44,101 nt of DNA from Candidatus Woesearchaeota archaeon (GTDB taxonomy: Archaea; Nanobdellota; Nanobdellia; Woesearchaeales; GW2011-AR9): the NCBI GenBank assembly GCA_018664115.1, contig JABJOX010000013.1, forward strand, positions 1 to 44,101. Reading direction: 5' to 3'. Made by a program: the position numbers and the translations under genes. Below, piece by piece: positions 6,986-25,462 of the stretch. Numbering within the stretch: position 1 is the stretch's first letter; every line of letters begins with the position of its first letter. The notes beneath the pieces are model-generated. The model was not told the origin of the DNA, did not search any database, and saw only the letters and a list, made by a program, of their open reading frames with translations.

Positions 6986-8959
6986 TTACTTTAACAACAA
7001 AGCTAGTAAGAACAGAATCACTGATAGTAAAATAACAATTCCTGCTACAAACAGTAAAGTCATTCTTAAATTACTAAAGCCTGATTCTTGAACTCCATCT
7101 TGACTGAAATCAGTAAAATCTAAAGGTTGAATCTCAACACTGGACCCACTTGTTTGTGGTGGAATATAATTGTCCAATAAAGTATTATATTGGTTATTAT
7201 CTTCCCCATTAAGAAGGTCGTCAATGTCATCTCTTAGATCTATGATGTCATCTTCAAGCTCTGATAAATCATCTAAAAGACTTTCATCGATATCATCTTC
7301 ATCTTCAAGATCATTAATCATGTCTTCAACATCATTCTCAAGATCTTTCAAATCATCATCTAAATCTTCAAGTTTCTTTTCATACTTCTCAATGTCTTTG
7401 TCGTCATCATCTTTTACTGCTTTCTCGTACTTCTTTTCAAAATAAGTAAAGTCATCTTCATCACTTTCAAACTCATCTTTGTACTCTTCGTACTCAGCTT
7501 CATCAGCAGTTTGATCATCGTCAGCAGGAGTTGAACCATCTTCTCCAGCACTATCACAAGCATCTCCTAATCCATCTCCGTCAGTATCTACTTGAGTAGG
7601 ATTAGCTGCTAATGGACAATTGTCAACTGAATCTAAATGTCCGTCTGCATCAGTATCAACAGGAGTTATAGGATCTACTTCACAAGTAGTAGCATCAAAT
7701 TCCTCTGTAGCTAAAAAGATCACCATCTCTTCAATTAACTGATTAAACTTTTCAGCAAGAGAAGCAAAATCTTCAGCTAATGAATTACCTTGAGCTTCCA
7801 ATTTTAAAACGTGACCATTTAAAGATTCTTCATAACCTGCAGAAAAAATTATAGTAACCGCTAATCCAAACTGAATTGTCTCAGCTTGTTCTTCATCTCC
7901 AGTACACATTGCTGTTTGATAAGCCACTACAGAATCTTCAAACATTCCTTTAAACAGTAAATAAGCATTTTCGCTTTCTCTTAATGCATTCATTAAATCA
8001 TCATCAGGATCAACTGGACCTTCTGGATTATAATCTCTGTCACAAACATTGCCAATACCATCAGCATCAACATCTTCTTGACCAGAATTAGCTACAAAAG
8101 GACAGTTATCTTCTAAATCATAAATTCTGTCTCCATCAGTATCAAGCTCAACTGGGTCAACTGGATCTTCTGGGACATAATCTCTGTCACAAACATTACC
8201 AATACCATCATGATCGAAATCAGCTTGATTTGGATTAACTACTAAAAAGCAATTGTCTTCAGAATCAACAAATCCGTCACCATCAGTATCAACTGAATCT
8301 ACTGGATCAACTGGGTCTTCAGGAACATCTACATAATCAAGATCGCAAACATTACCAATACCATCATGGTCAGCATCTTCTTGACCAAAATTAGAGGTTA
8401 ATATACAATTATCGCAAACATCTCCAATGCCATCATTATCAAAATCAGCTTGATTAGGATTTGCTGTTTCTAAACAGTTATCACAAACATCGCCAACACC
8501 ATCATTATCAGTGTCTTCTTGTTCAGGATTAGCAGTCAAAGGACAATTATCATTTGCTTTATCTACCCCATCACGATCTGCATCGTGTTCATCTAAAATA
8601 GCTACAATTGTATTATAATTGTCAACATCAACAGTTTTTACTTTTTCAAAATCTGCAAGTAATTCATTTAAACTTAATTCTTCAGCTAAACTAATAGCCT
8701 TATTTAAAATTAAAATTTCTCCATACAAAGAACTCTCTAAATTATGTAACCCATTAAGAATTTCTTCTGTAGGACCAATAGCACCAAGTTTAACAAACAA
8801 AAGATTAAAATCTTCGTTTAATGATTCACTTGATAACTTTAATTCACTTAATTTATAACTTAAAATTGCTTCTTGTTCATCATCAGCAAGAACAAATGAA
8901 CTAACTGAAACTAACAAAAGCAAAATAATAAATAAAGATTGTATTTTTTTTGTTATCAT
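6986..8959 (-). CDS. Secreted, membrane-anchored thrombospondin type-3 repeat (Ca-binding) protein with acidic coiled-coil and C-terminal TM
   Basis: Signal peptide MITKKIQSLFIILLLLVSVSSFVLA; repeated DxDxDGxxDxxDNCPxxxNPxQxDxDxDGxGxxCD; acidic D/E-rich coiled-coil; TM LLFVAGIVILLSVILFLLALLLK. ATG at 8959 preferred over 8980. Confidence 0.85.
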   Translation of the reverse strand: MITKKIQSLFIILLLLVSVSSFVLADDEQEAILSYKLSELKLSSESLNEDFNLLFVKLGAIGPTEEILNGLHNLESSLYGEILILNKAISLAEELSLNELLADFEKVKTVDVDNYNTIVAILDEHDADRDGVDKANDNCPLTANPEQEDTDNDGVGDVCDNCLETANPNQADFDNDGIGDVCDNCILTSNFGQEDADHDGIGNVCDLDYVDVPEDPVDPVDSVDTDGDGFVDSEDNCFLVVNPNQADFDHDGIGNVCDRDYVPEDPVDPVELDTDGDRIYDLEDNCPFVANSGQEDVDADGIGNVCDRDYNPEGPVDPDDDLMNALRESENAYLLFKGMFEDSVVAYQTAMCTGDEEQAETIQFGLAVTIIFSAGYEESLNGHVLKLEAQGNSLAEDFASLAEKFNQLIEEMVIFLATEEFDATTCEVDPITPVDTDADGHLDSVDNCPLAANPTQVDTDGDGLGDACDSAGEDGSTPADDDQTADEAEYEEYKDEFESDEDDFTYFEKKYEKAVKDDDDKDIEKYEKKLEDLDDDLKDLENDVEDMINDLEDEDDIDESLLDDLSELEDDIIDLRDDIDDLLNGEDNNQYNTLLDNYIPPQTSGSSVEIQPLDFTDFSQDGVQESGFSNLRMTLLFVAGIVILLSVILFLLALLLK

Positions 8960-9122: not shown

Positions 9123-10187
9123 ATGGTAAACTATTTAAAAAAAATATTAACTTCTGGATTAGTAGCAGGAATGATTATCGCTCCTGGATGTGGAGATACT
9201 AATAATATACATATCCACAATTATAATAAAGATGCAAAACAAGAATCATCTGACGTTAGAGTAGATACTCAATTTAATGATGGTTATCGTCAAGCTGATA
9301 TTCAAACTGAAGTTATTGAAGATTTATTTGTTGCAGAAGACAATTTAGATTTAAACGCACAAGATACAAACATTGATTCTAATGTAGAAGACTTACTTAC
9401 TACTGAAGTTAGTGCAGATTTAAAAGATATTTATACTGCAGAAGTTACAGATGTAGAAGATACATATGAAGTTAAAGCAGATGTAAAAGATTCATACGAA
9501 GTTAGCGACAACACAGAAGTAGAAGACACTTATGAAATTAATGTTGATACTAATGTAGAAGACGCTTATGAAGTTAACGATGTAGAAGATGTATTTGAAA
9601 TTAACGCAGATGTAGAAGACACATATGTTGCAGAAGTTAACGATGTAGAAGATATATTTGAAATTAGTGCAGATGTAGAAGACATTTATCTTGCAGAAGT
9701 TAATGATGTAGAAGACGCATATGAAGTTAATGCAGATGCAGAAATTGAAAATGACGCTGCTGATTCTTTAGTAGAACAAATATTAAGTTGTGAAAATTTA
9801 AATGAAGTTCCTGCTTGTTTAGGAGATGATTATGCAACTTTAGTTTCTACAGGATTAGAAGTTAACACTGCGATTGATTTAGAATATGCAGGCGTAACTA
9901 CTGATCAAGATGTAGACCATTTCAAGATGATTGTTTCTGGAAACCCTTGTGTATTACCAGAATACTTTGAAGAAAGTTGTCTTGCTTGGATAAATACAGA
10001 GAAACCAGGAATATCTACTGTTAAATTAATTGACGAAGAAAATATTGAAATTAGAGGAGGCTTGTTAGAAAGAATTGCTGCTCTTACTGTACTAGCTAAT
10101 GGAGAAGTTCAAGGAAGTGAATGTGTTATCACTGGAATTGATCCAAACACAGCATCAGTTAATTGTAATGAGCAACCAGAAGAATAA
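9123..10187 (+). CDS. Putative lipoprotein with tandem acidic DVED(T/I/A)Y(E/V)V-type repeats
   Basis: Signal peptide ending APGC; degenerate repeats (VEDTYEV, VEDAYEV, VEDVFEI, VEDIFEI...) in about aa 100-215; distinct C-terminal domain with Cys residues. Confidence 0.8.
   Translation: MVNYLKKILTSGLVAGMIIAPGCGDTNNIHIHNYNKDAKQESSDVRVDTQFNDGYRQADIQTEVIEDLFVAEDNLDLNAQDTNIDSNVEDLLTTEVSADLKDIYTAEVTDVEDTYEVKADVKDSYEVSDNTEVEDTYEINVDTNVEDAYEVNDVEDVFEINADVEDTYVAEVNDVEDIFEISADVEDIYLAEVNDVEDAYEVNADAEIENDAADSLVEQILSCENLNEVPACLGDDYATLVSTGLEVNTAIDLEYAGVTTDQDVDHFKMIVSGNPCVLPEYFEESCLAWINTEKPGISTVKLIDEENIEIRGGLLERIAALTVLANGEVQGSECVITGIDPNTASVNCNEQPEE
9410..9745 (+). repeat. In-frame degenerate tandem repeats around GATGTAGAAGAC
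   Basis: Multiple copies of gatgtagaagac/gatgtagaagat with gaagttaa(t/c)g spacers inside the lipoprotein ORF. Confidence 0.85.
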
Positions 10188-19982: not shown

Positions 19983-20078
19983 TTAAGCAGCAATAAAAGT
20001 GAAGAAATCTAATTCTTCATGATTGCCTTGTAAAAATTGATAATTTAAAAGATCAAAAAAATATTTTTCAGCGTTCAT
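19983..20078 (-). CDS. Candidate 31-aa microprotein overlapping the PRC-barrel gene stop
   Basis: ATGA overlap; MNAEKYFFDLLNYQFLQGNHEELDFFTFIAA*; below the ORF-track cutoff. Confidence 0.35.
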   Translation of the reverse strand: MNAEKYFFDLLNYQFLQGNHEELDFFTFIAA

Positions 20079-20356
20079 TCTGCACTTGGTTCCTCATCAT
20101 CCATTGCACCAGTAGGAACTGCACTCTTAGAAATTATTAAAATGTCACCAACCGCTTTAACTAACTGATGCGGAACAATAACTCCTTTCGCACTACCGAT
20201 AACTCTACTTAAGAAAGAATTCTTTGTAGATTTAATTTTCCAACCAGAAACTTTGTTTGTTTGAATAATACTATCTTCAACATCACCGAAATACTCACCG
20301 GTATCAGTAAATACTTTTAAATCATAAGTTTCAGACACTTTTTTCATTTTTAGCAT
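20075..20356 (-). CDS. PRC-barrel domain protein
   Basis: KVFTDTGEYFGDVEDSIIQTNKVSGWKI...GVIVPHQLVKAVGDILII; internal ATG start preferred over 20371. Confidence 0.75.
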   Translation of the reverse strand: MLKMKKVSETYDLKVFTDTGEYFGDVEDSIIQTNKVSGWKIKSTKNSFLSRVIGSAKGVIVPHQLVKAVGDILIISKSAVPTGAMDDEEPSAE

Positions 20357-20430
20357 ATTAAACCACCTCACTAATATAATTAAGTTAAATTTACTTAAGT
20401 TTAAATACTTTTCTGTATTTGAAGCTAACT

Positions 20431-21117
20431 ATGAATAACGTTATGATTATTGGTACATCACATATTGCTAAACAAAGTGTGAATGAGATTAAAACCGCCG
20501 TTAGTGCCTGGAAACCAGACATTATTGCTGTAGAACTAGATTTACAACGGGCTGCTGCTTTGATGTCTGAAGAGAAAAGTAAAGTCACTTTAGCTATGAT
20601 TCTAAAAATTGGTATAAAAGGTTATTTGTTTGCTAAAGTTGGCCAGTTTGTACAACAAAAGTTAGGTAAAATGGTTGGTGTAAGTCCTGGAAGTGAAATG
20701 AAAGAAGCTTTGAATCTAGTTCGGAAGGAGAAATTAGAAGCAGCTTTTATTGACCAACCAATTCAAATCACGTTAAAAAATTTCTCTAAGTACTTAACCT
20801 GGAAAGAAAAATTTAGATTCTTCTGGGATATGGTAAAAGGTTTGATTACTCCTAAAAAACAAATGCGAGAAATGGGTTTAGATCAATTTGACTTAACTAA
20901 AGTTCCTGGGAAAGAAGTTGTTAAGAAATTAGTTAACCAAATGCGAAAAAGATATCCTAACGTTTATCGTGCTTTAGTATCTGATCGGAATAAGTATATG
21001 GTTCGCCAAATTGTAAAAATTCTCCGTAAAAACCCAGATAAAAAGATTCTTGTAGTTATCGGTGCTGGCCATGAAGAAGGGATGCGAGAACTGCTGTTGA
21101 AAGTCGATGTTGTTTAG
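20431..21117 (+). CDS. TraB/PrgY-family protein
   Basis: MIIGTSHIAKQSVNEIKTAVSAWKPDIIAVELDLQRAAAL and C-terminal KKILVVIGAGHEEGM. ATG 20431 preferred over TTG 20419; upstream TTTAAATA box. Confidence 0.9.
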   Translation: MNNVMIIGTSHIAKQSVNEIKTAVSAWKPDIIAVELDLQRAAALMSEEKSKVTLAMILKIGIKGYLFAKVGQFVQQKLGKMVGVSPGSEMKEALNLVRKEKLEAAFIDQPIQITLKNFSKYLTWKEKFRFFWDMVKGLITPKKQMREMGLDQFDLTKVPGKEVVKKLVNQMRKRYPNVYRALVSDRNKYMVRQIVKILRKNPDKKILVVIGAGHEEGMRELLLKVDVV

Positions 21118-21120
21118 AAA
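21017..21120 (+). repeat. Left copy of 104-bp direct repeat (3' end of the TraB-family gene)
   Basis: 97/104 identical, ungapped, to 22353-22456. Confidence 0.95.
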
Positions 21121-21123
21121 TTG

Positions 21124-22308
21124 TTAAGAACAAGGAACTTTAAACCCATGACTTGGCTTATTCGGAACTTGACATAATGTCTGTTTCATCATCTTTTCTG
21201 CTTTATAAAAAACATACTCCCTTTCATTACAACTTAAAATTTCATTCTGAGACATAGAAAATAAAAGATTAATCTCAGCACCATAAACACTTACCCAATC
21301 CCTATCCCCAATATGAGGAGGATTATCTTTTTCACAAATTATATGCCCCAATTTTTCATTATGAGATAATTCATCAAAGTTGTGATTTGCTTCATGATAT
21401 AATGTGGAGGCATAATCTATTTTTTCTTCAAGAGCGTTTTCATGTAACATTCTTACACAAACATAGATTGTACCTTGACCCAACTTATTCTTTGCAATAG
21501 GGCCTTCAAAAATTGTAGGAGAACATCCTATTTCTTCAAAATTTTCACCGTAACTTTCAGGTTGAGAACCATCATAATAAACAAGATTATTGTCTTTAAC
21601 AAAATCATAAGCGTTGACAAACTGATTTATTAGCATATTCTTAGGTTTGACATTACTAGTATATTTTAACACTGTAAGATATTTAATGAGATATTCAAAA
21701 TTATTCTTTTTTTCTCCAATAATTCCATTAAAACAGAAAGTTTCTACACCAAAGAACGATAATTTCTCACAAGAATTAGAAGAAAACTTATTCTGAATTC
21801 CTAAAAAATAATCAAAGCTACTTTGGTCCTTATAATGAACACTTAAAGAATTGCCCTTATCTAAAACTTTTTCTTCATCAATATTAGAGTAACCAAAATA
21901 TTCCAATAATCTATACAAATCCGTTCTACCTACAAAATTTTCTGCAATAAATAAACTTTCACAATCTGATTTTGAAGAAGTAAGCCAAACATTTTCATCA
22001 TTTATTTTTAAATAACATCCAATTTTAATACTTTCTAAAACCTTTTTTGCAATTTGTAATCTTCTGGTGGGATCAATCTTGTAAATTTTCGTATCCCTAT
22101 ATCTCTTTTTAAAAGAATAATAAGTTTCACCAACTAATGCTTCCGATTGGTTTGCTTCATTAATAACTAAAGTGAGTTCTTCAATAGTAAAATTTTCCAT
22201 CTCTGCTTCAATCTCTTCATCAGAATAATCCCCATTACAACCAACTAGAATTAAAAATAATAATGAAATTATAATTACACCTATCATCCTCATTATTATT
22301 TTCATCAT
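21124..22308 (-). CDS. Putative lipoprotein with HExxH metallopeptidase-like motif
   Basis: Signal/lipobox IIISLLFLILVGC; STLYHEANHNFDE; downstream GAEINLLF could supply a third ligand. TATA-like ttatatatat near 22325-22335 favours a start at ~22308 or ~22293 over 22338. Confidence 0.7.
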   Translation of the reverse strand: MMKIIMRMIGVIIISLLFLILVGCNGDYSDEEIEAEMENFTIEELTLVINEANQSEALVGETYYSFKKRYRDTKIYKIDPTRRLQIAKKVLESIKIGCYLKINDENVWLTSSKSDCESLFIAENFVGRTDLYRLLEYFGYSNIDEEKVLDKGNSLSVHYKDQSSFDYFLGIQNKFSSNSCEKLSFFGVETFCFNGIIGEKKNNFEYLIKYLTVLKYTSNVKPKNMLINQFVNAYDFVKDNNLVYYDGSQPESYGENFEEIGCSPTIFEGPIAKNKLGQGTIYVCVRMLHENALEEKIDYASTLYHEANHNFDELSHNEKLGHIICEKDNPPHIGDRDWVSVYGAEINLLFSMSQNEILSCNEREYVFYKAEKMMKQTLCQVPNKPSHGFKVPCS

Positions 22309-22352
22309 TCTTAATATTTCAAAGATATATATAAACATTTCTTTGAATCACT

Positions 22353-22456
22353 AAATTCTTCGTAAAAACCCAGATAAAAAGATTCTCGTTGTTATCGGTG
22401 CTGGCCATCAAGAAGGTATGCGAGAATTGCTGTTGAAGGTCGATGTTGTTTAGAAA
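22353..22456 (+). pseudogene. Orphan copy of the TraB-family gene 3' end (right direct repeat)
   Basis: Encodes ILRKNPDKKILVVIGAGHQEGMRELLLKVDVV*; 7 substitutions relative to 21017-21120, only one of them nonsynonymous (E to Q). Confidence 0.93.
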
Positions 22457-22485
22457 CCACTTCCCAGTAAATAATTCTCAAAAAG

Positions 22486-22493
22486 TTTATAAA
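22486..22493 (+). promoter_or_regulatory. TATA box for RNase P RNA
   Basis: TTTATAAA about 25-30 nt upstream of the RNA 5' end. Confidence 0.6.
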
Positions 22494-22514
22494 GATGGGA
22501 CTAAAATATACTAA

Positions 22515-22850
22515 TAGGTAGGAGTGGTATTTAGCTTACGGTTTTAAATTGAGGAAAGTCCGCCCACTATTAACAAACTGCTTACGAGAGTAAGGATCAG
22601 AAATGGTCAGCTCTGGCTCAGAAACGACACGTCCTGTCAAATGGAATGATAAAGAGTCCATGTAATGGCGAAGCATTCAGAGATGAATGTGAGTTAACCT
22701 TTTGACGTCTTGACAGGGAACGATGAAACGGCGAATCTCAGTTAGTGCAAGTTGGTTCAACGCTTAGTAGAATGCTAAAACAAACCATCGTTATCACAAT
22801 GTTGATAATTCGGGTTTGACAAAAGGCGGCTTATTCCACCCTACCTACTT
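22515..22850 (+). ncRNA. rnpB: RNase P RNA (archaeal)
   Basis: P1 pairing AGGTAGG...CCTACCT, CR-I gaggaaagtcc, agaaacgacac, ggttcaacgcttagtagaatgctaaaacaaacc, CR-V gacaaaaggcggctta. Confidence 0.95.
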
Positions 22851-22851
22851 T

Positions 22852-23352
22852 TTATATTAAATTAAATCTTCTTAAAATGCTCATATAAGCATGATATCTT
22901 ATTCCTAAATCAAGATCTTGAACTTCATTAGGACTTACCCAACGTAACTCCGCTACTTCTTCACAGTCAACTTTTAAATTGGTTTCATCTAAATCCCCTA
23001 TATCAACCAAAAAAGCATGAAGACGAATTTCAAAGTCGGGTAATTTTTTATTTTTAAACCAATAACTTATATGATTTGTAAGCATTTCTTTTTTGAATTC
23101 TTTTAAATCAATTCCTAGTTCTTCATTTATTTCTCTGATTAATGCTTTGTTAGGGTCTTCATTTTCTTCAATTCCTCCTTGAGGAAACTTATATGTGTTT
23201 TTATCAACAAAAGATTTATCTAGAGAATTATTTCTGGGATTTAATATAATTAACAATTTCCCATCTTTTCTTCTAAGTAAACCTAGTGCTGTATTGCGGT
23301 AATCTTTTCCAAGTTTTGCCATTTTTCTAATTCGTATGTTGTTGGTGAACAT
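22852..23352 (-). CDS. Nudix hydrolase (RppH-like)
   Basis: Nudix box GGIEENEDPNKALIREINEELGI; KFPQGG. Confidence 0.92.
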   Translation of the reverse strand: MFTNNIRIRKMAKLGKDYRNTALGLLRRKDGKLLIILNPRNNSLDKSFVDKNTYKFPQGGIEENEDPNKALIREINEELGIDLKEFKKEMLTNHISYWFKNKKLPDFEIRLHAFLVDIGDLDETNLKVDCEEVAELRWVSPNEVQDLDLGIRYHAYMSILRRFNLI

Positions 23353-23981
23353 AAAGAGATATCTATGGATAAACTAATTATGTTGTGAAGTTTATCAGGG
23401 CTTTTAGTTCCGTCTAATCGGATCATTTTTTCTTTTAAATAATCTTCTGCTCTGTTGATTGTATCTTGCCATAAGTCATATCCTCTTCGAACGTTTTCTC
23501 TCCTAAATTCAGTTTTAGTGTAATCATCATCGGATACTCTTTCTAACAAAACATCTTTTGGGACATCAATAACAAAATATTGTTCTGGATGTAAATTAGT
23601 AGACAAAAAAGCATCTTCAAATTTTGTATCTTTATCCTGTTGTCTTAACATGAACCATCTTGACAAATAACATCTGTCCATTAACAATACTCCCTCGGGA
23701 TTAGTGCTAATAAATGAAGCATATTTATCTTCATTTTCATTTGATAAAACTTGATAAGCAAGATTCCAATCTTGATAATTTTTATTATTATTAGCTTGCC
23801 AAATTTTCCACCAGTCAGAACTGGGGTCTGTGAAATTGTCTAACCCTTTTCCTGGTCTTGAACCATCACCCCTAAGAACACCTACCGGAACAGAAAGACT
23901 TTCTAAATGTTCTTTCATTTTACTAATTTGAGTGCCTTTACCACTCCGATTAAGACCATCAAAAGAAATTATTTGTCCCAT
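23283..23981 (-). CDS. Thymidylate kinase-like P-loop kinase
   Basis: IISFDGLNRSGKGTQ P-loop, LLMDRCYLSRW DR motif; C-terminus overlaps the Nudix ORF. Confidence 0.8.
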   Translation of the reverse strand: MGQIISFDGLNRSGKGTQISKMKEHLESLSVPVGVLRGDGSRPGKGLDNFTDPSSDWWKIWQANNNKNYQDWNLAYQVLSNENEDKYASFISTNPEGVLLMDRCYLSRWFMLRQQDKDTKFEDAFLSTNLHPEQYFVIDVPKDVLLERVSDDDYTKTEFRRENVRRGYDLWQDTINRAEDYLKEKMIRLDGTKSPDKLHNIISLSIDISLCSPTTYELEKWQNLEKITAIQH

Positions 23982-25462
23982 TATTGTAATTCCCCTTTTT
24001 CATAAAAAGATAGAGGTGTTGAACCTTCATATGCTTTTGCTGCTGCTAAATAAGACATACTCATTAATGCCACTGAACCTTCATGTTGTTCTAAAGAGGA
24101 TTTCAATTTTCCTTTTGGAATTTCACCATTAACCGCCATCATAAATTCACAAAAACAAGATCCTCTAGCATCTTCTTGATGCCCCCTACTATAACCTTTA
24201 AGTCCTTGTTCGTTCACTTTACCAAATTGTACAACTTCAAATTCTGGCAAGTCAACTCCAAGAGCTTTTGAATTTCTAAAAATATAAACATCAGAATGGA
24301 GCTCTCCTCCAATAAGACCACTACCTTTTAAACTATCATTATCTATCTGGTCCGATTGATAAGAAACATAATAAATAACTTGAAATGGCCCTTGATGTAC
24401 AATATGAGTTTCATGTCTAATCCTACCATTTCCTTTGTATAAATTATTTCTTGCATCTACCCAAGAACGTTTACTAAAACCATTATGTAATAAAGAGAAA
24501 TGGATATTAGTTATTTTCAAATCATCTTTCATTAATGAAATATTAACATGGGCATCAATTTCTCCAAACCCTTTTGTCTTTTCGATAAATTCTTCATTAG
24601 TTAAATTAAATTTTCCATTCGAATAACTATTACCAAAAATTTTTTTATAATCTTCAACATTTAATTGAGTGATCCAGTCATTCGGACGAATAAAATTCGC
24701 ATAACATTCAATCTTATTATGTTTTTTGTTTTTTGCAATTTGAGTATACCAATACATAACATCAAAAAAATGATACCCACTATGACTACATTTTCCAATA
24801 CCACCATTATATCCATGATAATCTAAATTAATAACTTCATCTGGCATTCTCCACTGACCATCACTATGTTGACAAACAATAGAAGTTACAGGACAATTGG
24901 TTCGTTCATAAATTCTTTCAAGTTCCGCCTTAACTCGATTAACTGCAGGGTGATATCTTCTTTGAGATAAACAACTAAGAATCAAGTCTGGATATTTTAT
25001 TTCAGTTTCTTTATATTTTTTAAGAAGCTCTTTATAATCTTCCATTATCTTTATTGCTTGTTTTGGTTCAGTACTTGCATTAACTTGAGTGGTTACAGGT
25101 TTATCAGTAAGAATATGTAATCCGTTTTCTAAAGCAAAATTAATGTATGTTTTATGTGCTAAAGGGTCGGTTGATAATATTACCGCATTAATATTATACT
25201 TTTTGACTAACTTTTGTAGATTAAGATAATCTTTTTTGGCTAATTTAAATTCAGAATTATAATTAGGAGCAACAAAATAAGTATCTGAATTAATATCATG
25301 ATCTTTAAGATATTTTATTGTCTCTTTTTTTAACTTGTCTATTTCAACAACTAACTTTAAGTCCGTATTGTATTTTTCATGATATTTTTTAATTAAAGGC
25401 AAATAAATTCTTTTTGCATGTGGCCCACATCCAATAACCATAACATTGTTTGTTTGTTTCAT
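23981..25462 (-). CDS. Gfo/Idh/MocA-like NAD(P)-dependent oxidoreductase, divergent
   Basis: N-terminal VMVIGCGPHAKRIYLPLI Rossmann motif, AVILSTDPLAHKTYINFALENGLHILTDKPVT (typical DKP motif). Confidence 0.8.
   Translation of the reverse strand: MKQTNNVMVIGCGPHAKRIYLPLIKKYHEKYNTDLKLVVEIDKLKKETIKYLKDHDINSDTYFVAPNYNSEFKLAKKDYLNLQKLVKKYNINAVILSTDPLAHKTYINFALENGLHILTDKPVTTQVNASTEPKQAIKIMEDYKELLKKYKETEIKYPDLILSCLSQRRYHPAVNRVKAELERIYERTNCPVTSIVCQHSDGQWRMPDEVINLDYHGYNGGIGKCSHSGYHFFDVMYWYTQIAKNKKHNKIECYANFIRPNDWITQLNVEDYKKIFGNSYSNGKFNLTNEEFIEKTKGFGEIDAHVNISLMKDDLKITNIHFSLLHNGFSKRSWVDARNNLYKGNGRIRHETHIVHQGPFQVIYYVSYQSDQIDNDSLKGSGLIGGELHSDVYIFRNSKALGVDLPEFEVVQFGKVNEQGLKGYSRGHQEDARGSCFCEFMMAVNGEIPKGKLKSSLEQHEGSVALMSMSYLAAAKAYEGSTPLSFYEKGELQ

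Follow-up and report, generated by a model that had tools for sequence, protein, structure and literature searches.

The window (the whole stretch of DNA analysed here, 44,101 nucleotides of contig JABJOX010000013.1 from the Candidatus Woesearchaeota assembly GCA_018664115.1) carries two copies of the 3' end of a traB-family gene on either side of a single-gene cassette. This locus is a genuine, well-preserved scar of ordinary gene exchange--that is, of an event of a known kind rather than of a new type of element. The best reading of it, and one that we consider probable, is homologous recombination anchored in traB and combined with an illegitimate right-hand join, or else an equivalent single-crossover insertion. 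What is new here is that at least two co-occurring lineages are combined, as a mosaic, in the MAG (termed here G000).

Two copies of the traB gene end

The features of the locus, in window coordinates, are these:

20078-20371, minus strand: PRC-barrel domain gene, the divergent, conserved neighbour of traB (Pfam PF05239, E = 2.9e-6)
20419-21117, plus strand: traB-family gene, intact, 232 aa, ending in tail A (Pfam PF01963, TraB_PrgY_gumN, E = 2.8e-26)
21017-21120, plus strand: tail A, the 3' end of the working traB with TAG and AAA; probably the newcomer copy
21121-22352, no strand: 1232 bp of cassette DNA separating the tails; not present in relatives with an empty site, G010 among them
21124-22308, minus strand: cassette gene, for a lipoprotein with HEANH; start placed at a Met-Met pair (the ORF could reach 22338)
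22325-22336, minus strand: TATA-like element of the cassette gene, TTTATATATATC (sequence read directly; consensus assignment putative)
22353-22456, plus strand: tail B, an orphan traB 3' end, ahead of which the joint has produced an in-frame TAA; probably the resident copy
22457-22519, plus strand: resident traB-rnpB leader with the rnpB TATA box GTTTATAAA, from comparison with G010 and G002
22520-22846, plus strand: rnpB, archaeal RNase P RNA (Rfam RF00373, RNaseP_arch, 151.5 bits, E = 5e-43)

The product of the working gene passes the Pfam gathering score for TraB/PrgY membership (93.4 versus 26.8 bits), and against NCBIfam TIGR00261 it scores 149.6, under the cut-off of 178.35. Its amino acid identity to the closest named relatives, which belong to the same genus, is 91% for G002 (SI039_bin18) and 79% for G001 (SI039_bin115).

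Tails A and B are ungapped direct repeats of 104 bp that differ at seven positions (93.3% identity), and they lie precisely where an earlier note on this DNA, made from the sequence alone, had placed them. When the assembly is compared with itself this repeat has an E-value of 4e-37, which is far beyond chance. Both tails end in a TAG stop codon followed by AAA; hence the TraB stop that the earlier note took them to share is indeed common to both, but the GAAA that it placed after the stop is not, the sequence there being TAG and then AAA. The orphan tail was also correctly described as lying close before the rnpB promoter: the rnpB TATA box (at about 22486-22494) is found some 30 bp past tail B.

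When the tails are compared in the traB reading frame, six of the seven differences are synonymous and the seventh replaces Glu219 with Gln. (An extra row in the codon comparison, AAA versus TAA at codon 200, lies across the repeat's left edge.) The TAA ahead of tail B was created by the cassette joint, so tail B is an untranslatable orphan. These differences bear upon whether the second tail arose by local tandem duplication of the traB tail around the cassette within one genome, with the orphan copy diverging afterwards--a reading that requires no donor and that yields the same topology. A dead copy, however, should gain mostly non-synonymous changes, whereas the synonymous excess seen here has P = 0.0019 under neutrality (in a test that rests on six or seven changes); and a dead copy should change more, whereas only two of the six changes polarised with G002 as the outgroup fall on B (P = 0.02, again from small counts). 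Tandem duplication is thus distinctly unlikely. Both results instead indicate that each tail belonged to a working traB gene of its own during the divergence, in agreement with the earlier claim that divergence took place while both copies were coding. At the six sites where G002 shares the state of one of the tails, B matches it at four and A at two (A differing at four), which alone does not tell which tail is foreign.

The traB-rnpB interval in related genomes

The order PRC-traB-rnpB-Sec61beta is a conserved neighbourhood in the window's Woesearchaeota family, within which traB and rnpB lie on one contig in 37 genomes. The gap between these two genes measures 23-272 bp in 15 of the 37 and 389-3614 bp in the remaining 22 (the rnpB start being approximate in a few), and the larger gaps mostly hold different genes; the PRC-traB gap, by comparison, stays at 33-149 bp in all but two of the 28 loci of the family. 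Given this variable content next to a short PRC-traB gap, the traB-rnpB gap is a permissive spot, the empty state of which is the simplest ancestor. Sec61beta and NAC genes lie downstream of rnpB in most loci with enough flank, with variable inserts.

As the earlier note anticipated, related genomes include both empty sites and other cassettes at this position. After tail B the window reads AAACCACTTCCCAGTAAATAATTCTCAAAAAGTTTATAAA, and AGTAAATAATTCTCAAAAAGTTTATAAA is identical in G010, an empty-site relative; G002 carries AAACCACTCTCCAGT ahead of its rnpB, and AAACCACT..CCAGT is common to it and to the window. Because the sequence past tail B matches that of empty-site relatives, tail B and the rnpB leader constitute the resident junction. 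The proposed ancestral order, traB-rnpB, is upheld both by this match to G010 and by the occurrence of the pair on one contig in the 37 genomes. Tail A and the cassette, as judged from these sequence comparisons, would be the newcomer. In G002 a different gene (217 aa, minus strand) occupies a position only a few bp away, and comparison of its insert with that of the window revealed no shared ends.

Among the pairs of repeats that were inspected, the two-tail pattern occurs once in the genome, and it provides the only second tail among 33 testable traB-rnpB intervals, the other 32 having none; in other words, it is not an arrangement common to all relatives, which the earlier note had named as the finding that would count against its proposal. 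Nor were convincing eroded second tails found in the relatives: in G036 a 33-base match scores 36 versus 29 in shuffles (z 5.8) and lies neither at the tail's end nor adjoining rnpB, and in G016 the match (35 versus 29 in shuffles) is likewise away from the tail's end and from rnpB.

Several further features of this neighbourhood were observed. Small genes on the plus strand, alike in having (Y/F)xGxRISxI-like motifs, recur in the traB-rnpB intervals of G014 (L110), G016 (L108), G026 (L092) and G062 (L093), which span several genera. The rnpB-Sec61beta interval varies between congeners: in the window (22852-25462) it holds NUDIX, thymidylate-kinase-like and GFO/IDH genes, and in G002 (L033 2301-3067) two short genes that resemble response-regulator receivers. 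Elsewhere in the window, short tandem direct repeats of 68-86% identity occur at 7551-8536 and 9373-9757.

The cassette gene and a possible site-specific integration

The cassette has a G+C content of 28.0%, compared with 31.3% for the genome, and its sole gene is a complete ORF on the minus strand (22338-21124). The earlier note had described one complete, oppositely oriented gene with its own TATA-like box within the 1232 bp, and so it is, except that the gene probably starts at a pair of Met codons (about 22308/22305), roughly 22-25 bp downstream of the TATA-like element, rather than at the first ATG of the ORF.

The encoded protein has a lipobox-like signal, ILVGC, and an HEANH sequence (an HEXXH motif) that is invariant across five aligned homologues, upon which basis it is reasonable to regard it as a putative surface zinc peptidase, though this label is unproven. 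The earlier designation of a metalloprotease-lipoprotein thus accords with the lipobox-like signal and the invariant HEANH, while comparison with Pfam, NCBIfam and PDB sequences gave no relevant match, and a single-sequence AlphaFold model (pLDDT 32.6) is unusable. The first 80-100 or so residues (window about 22000-22305, minus strand), which include the lipobox and a EEIEAEMENFTIEELTLVINEAN-like stretch, are similar to the N-termini of numerous proteins that otherwise differ and that are encoded in genomes of the family, a likeness that suggests a shared export module. No relative of the gene was found among the viral contigs searched, and PADLOC gave no match that would point to a role in defence.

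Homologues of the cassette gene occur patchily, in five further genomes (six of 362 in the order, counting the window's own), the best of which, from another family, has 50% over query residues 67-362. In G012 and G025 the homologue adjoins an aspartyl-tRNA synthetase-like ORF, which was identified by eye. These two genomes represent two genera of the window's family, and in them the homologue and the synthetase-like ORF have opposite relative orientations (L154 2105-3364 in G012 versus L155 2242-3357 in G025); moreover, in G012 the homologue is divided between two ORFs.

One route that the earlier note had offered is att-like site-specific integration, in which a trans-acting recombinase would use the traB 3' end and the element's replacement tail would rebuild the gene. 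Integration that rebuilds the 3' end of a gene is known for other elements; and here the 3' end is rebuilt exactly, the stop codon is the site of insertion, another cassette is inserted in G002 only a few bp from this position, and tyrosine recombinases are encoded in G000. The latter, however, are found on other contigs only: among the genes examined near the repeats no integrase could be recognised, and none was matched in the cassette, as the earlier note had itself remarked. Furthermore, none of the 32 other testable intervals is two-tailed, the homologues in G012 and G025 adjoin a different gene, the inserts in G002 and in the window have no ends in common, and an inverted-repeat scan revealed no obvious pair at the tails. 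Att-like integration is thus not borne out by these comparisons and is quite improbable. Still less probable is the more general notion that the traB stop/rnpB leader is a dedicated insertion site in the family, at which a trans-acting recombinase would add one-gene cassettes and these would restore the 3' end of traB, with only the youngest insertion keeping its displaced tail.

Strain mosaicism and the probable route of exchange

Comparison of the G000 assembly with itself (1,116,556 of 1,117,469 bases) reveals 14 dovetailed pairs of contig ends, the overlaps being 130-1150 bp long and 84-96% identical. Conserved genes are represented among the longer dovetails that were tested, and most of the differences in these longer overlaps are at third codon positions. 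One of the 14 involves the left end of the window itself (1-672 versus C59:4357-5028, 90.6%). Such overlaps between contig ends identify the MAG as a mosaic of co-occurring lineages; tails at 93% identity fit two lineages of this sort, so a plausible donor is present in the same sample. The assembly also contains many exact overlaps of 141 bp between contig ends, which point to de Bruijn assembly with k = 141. A genome-wide habit of 3'-end echoes was considered as well, and none of the 14 candidate pairs inspected is a gene-end echo. Most of the other short repeats in G000 belong to three classes, namely tandem protein repeats, the starts of paralogous lipoproteins, and promoter repeats.

With strains mixed in this way in the MAG, anything concluded from one contig alone calls for support from reads, and greater weight attaches to the worry that the locus is an assembly chimera--that is, that one lineage has traB and the cassette, that another has a cassette-free traB-rnpB, and that the contig switches between them. 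The identity between the tails lies within the range over which the MAG mixes lineages, and the window contig itself has a left end that overlaps another contig in this manner. The 104-bp repeat is, however, shorter than k; and inasmuch as a strain switch needs shared k-mers, whereas the joint at 22352/22353 has no homology on its left, there must be some real molecule in which at least about 20 bp of tail come after the cassette. A chimeric assembly is therefore unlikely.

For recombination anchored in traB, the preferred reading, what the sequence shows is the end products, from which we infer the donor, the succession of events and the enzymes, as follows. A segment comprising a traB end and the adjoining minus-strand lipoprotein gene would have been imported from a close relative whose divergence in this part of the sequence is about 7%. 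At one end the segment would have paired by homology within traB, with the result that the working gene now ends in the donor's tail A; at this left boundary of the event traB runs uninterrupted through tail A, which is homologous to tail B. The other end would have been joined without visible homology, just past the cassette promoter, into the resident traB; the sequence left of 22353 bears no resemblance to traB, and the joint lies 101 bp ahead of the end of the resident stop codon. Such a non-homologous join inside the resident gene would leave tail B as a dead fragment before the resident rnpB leader. By an equivalent route with the same topology, a circle carrying the traB tail and the cassette may have integrated by a single crossover. 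The donor is predicted to have traB-cassette, its tail A being linked straight to CCACTTCCC-rnpB. No genome with tail A and the cassette was found as donor, so the direction of transfer is one that we only infer. Of the two routes proposed in the earlier note, recombination with a diverged relative is thus the one that best explains the cassette, a suitably diverged, co-occurring lineage being visible in the assembly.

This places the incoming and resident alleles of one gene end side by side in a small-genome DPANN archaeon, whose exchange of DNA is difficult to investigate in the absence of cultures. The traB-rnpB gap, moreover, is variable and lends itself to tracking gene turnover between co-occurring lineages. 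In principle, tails A and B could recombine again, which would remove the cassette.

Literature searches on illegitimate recombination in DPANN and on Saanich Inlet Woesearchaeota found nothing, and the nearest comparisons are with systems known from elsewhere. As in integrative elements that insert at gene 3' ends, the gene end in the window has been rebuilt, direct repeats bracket the insert and the resident end lies beyond it; unlike those elements, the cassette lacks an integrase, the insert is a single gene and the repeat does not recur in relatives. A homologous anchor combined with an illegitimate end that leaves behind a displaced 3' gene part has a published precedent, such a pattern having been proposed for rhs and T6SS loci with homology-facilitated illegitimate recombination (HFIR) as its route (PMC5361080). 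In the orphan 3' parts of rhs and the orphan immunity genes of T6SS, as in traB, a constant 5' part gains a new 3' end and a downstream gene while the old 3' part is orphaned; by contrast, the two traB tails encode almost the same protein sequence, are without toxin-immunity logic and show a single displacement. HFIR itself has been described in Acinetobacter, Streptococcus pneumoniae and Pseudomonas stutzeri (cited in PMC5361080). Although HFIR has been shown in transformable bacteria and the case in the window is reconstructed from one archaeal MAG, the two appear alike in that one end is anchored by homology and the other is not, and in that DNA is added while the resident sequence is displaced downstream rather than replaced.
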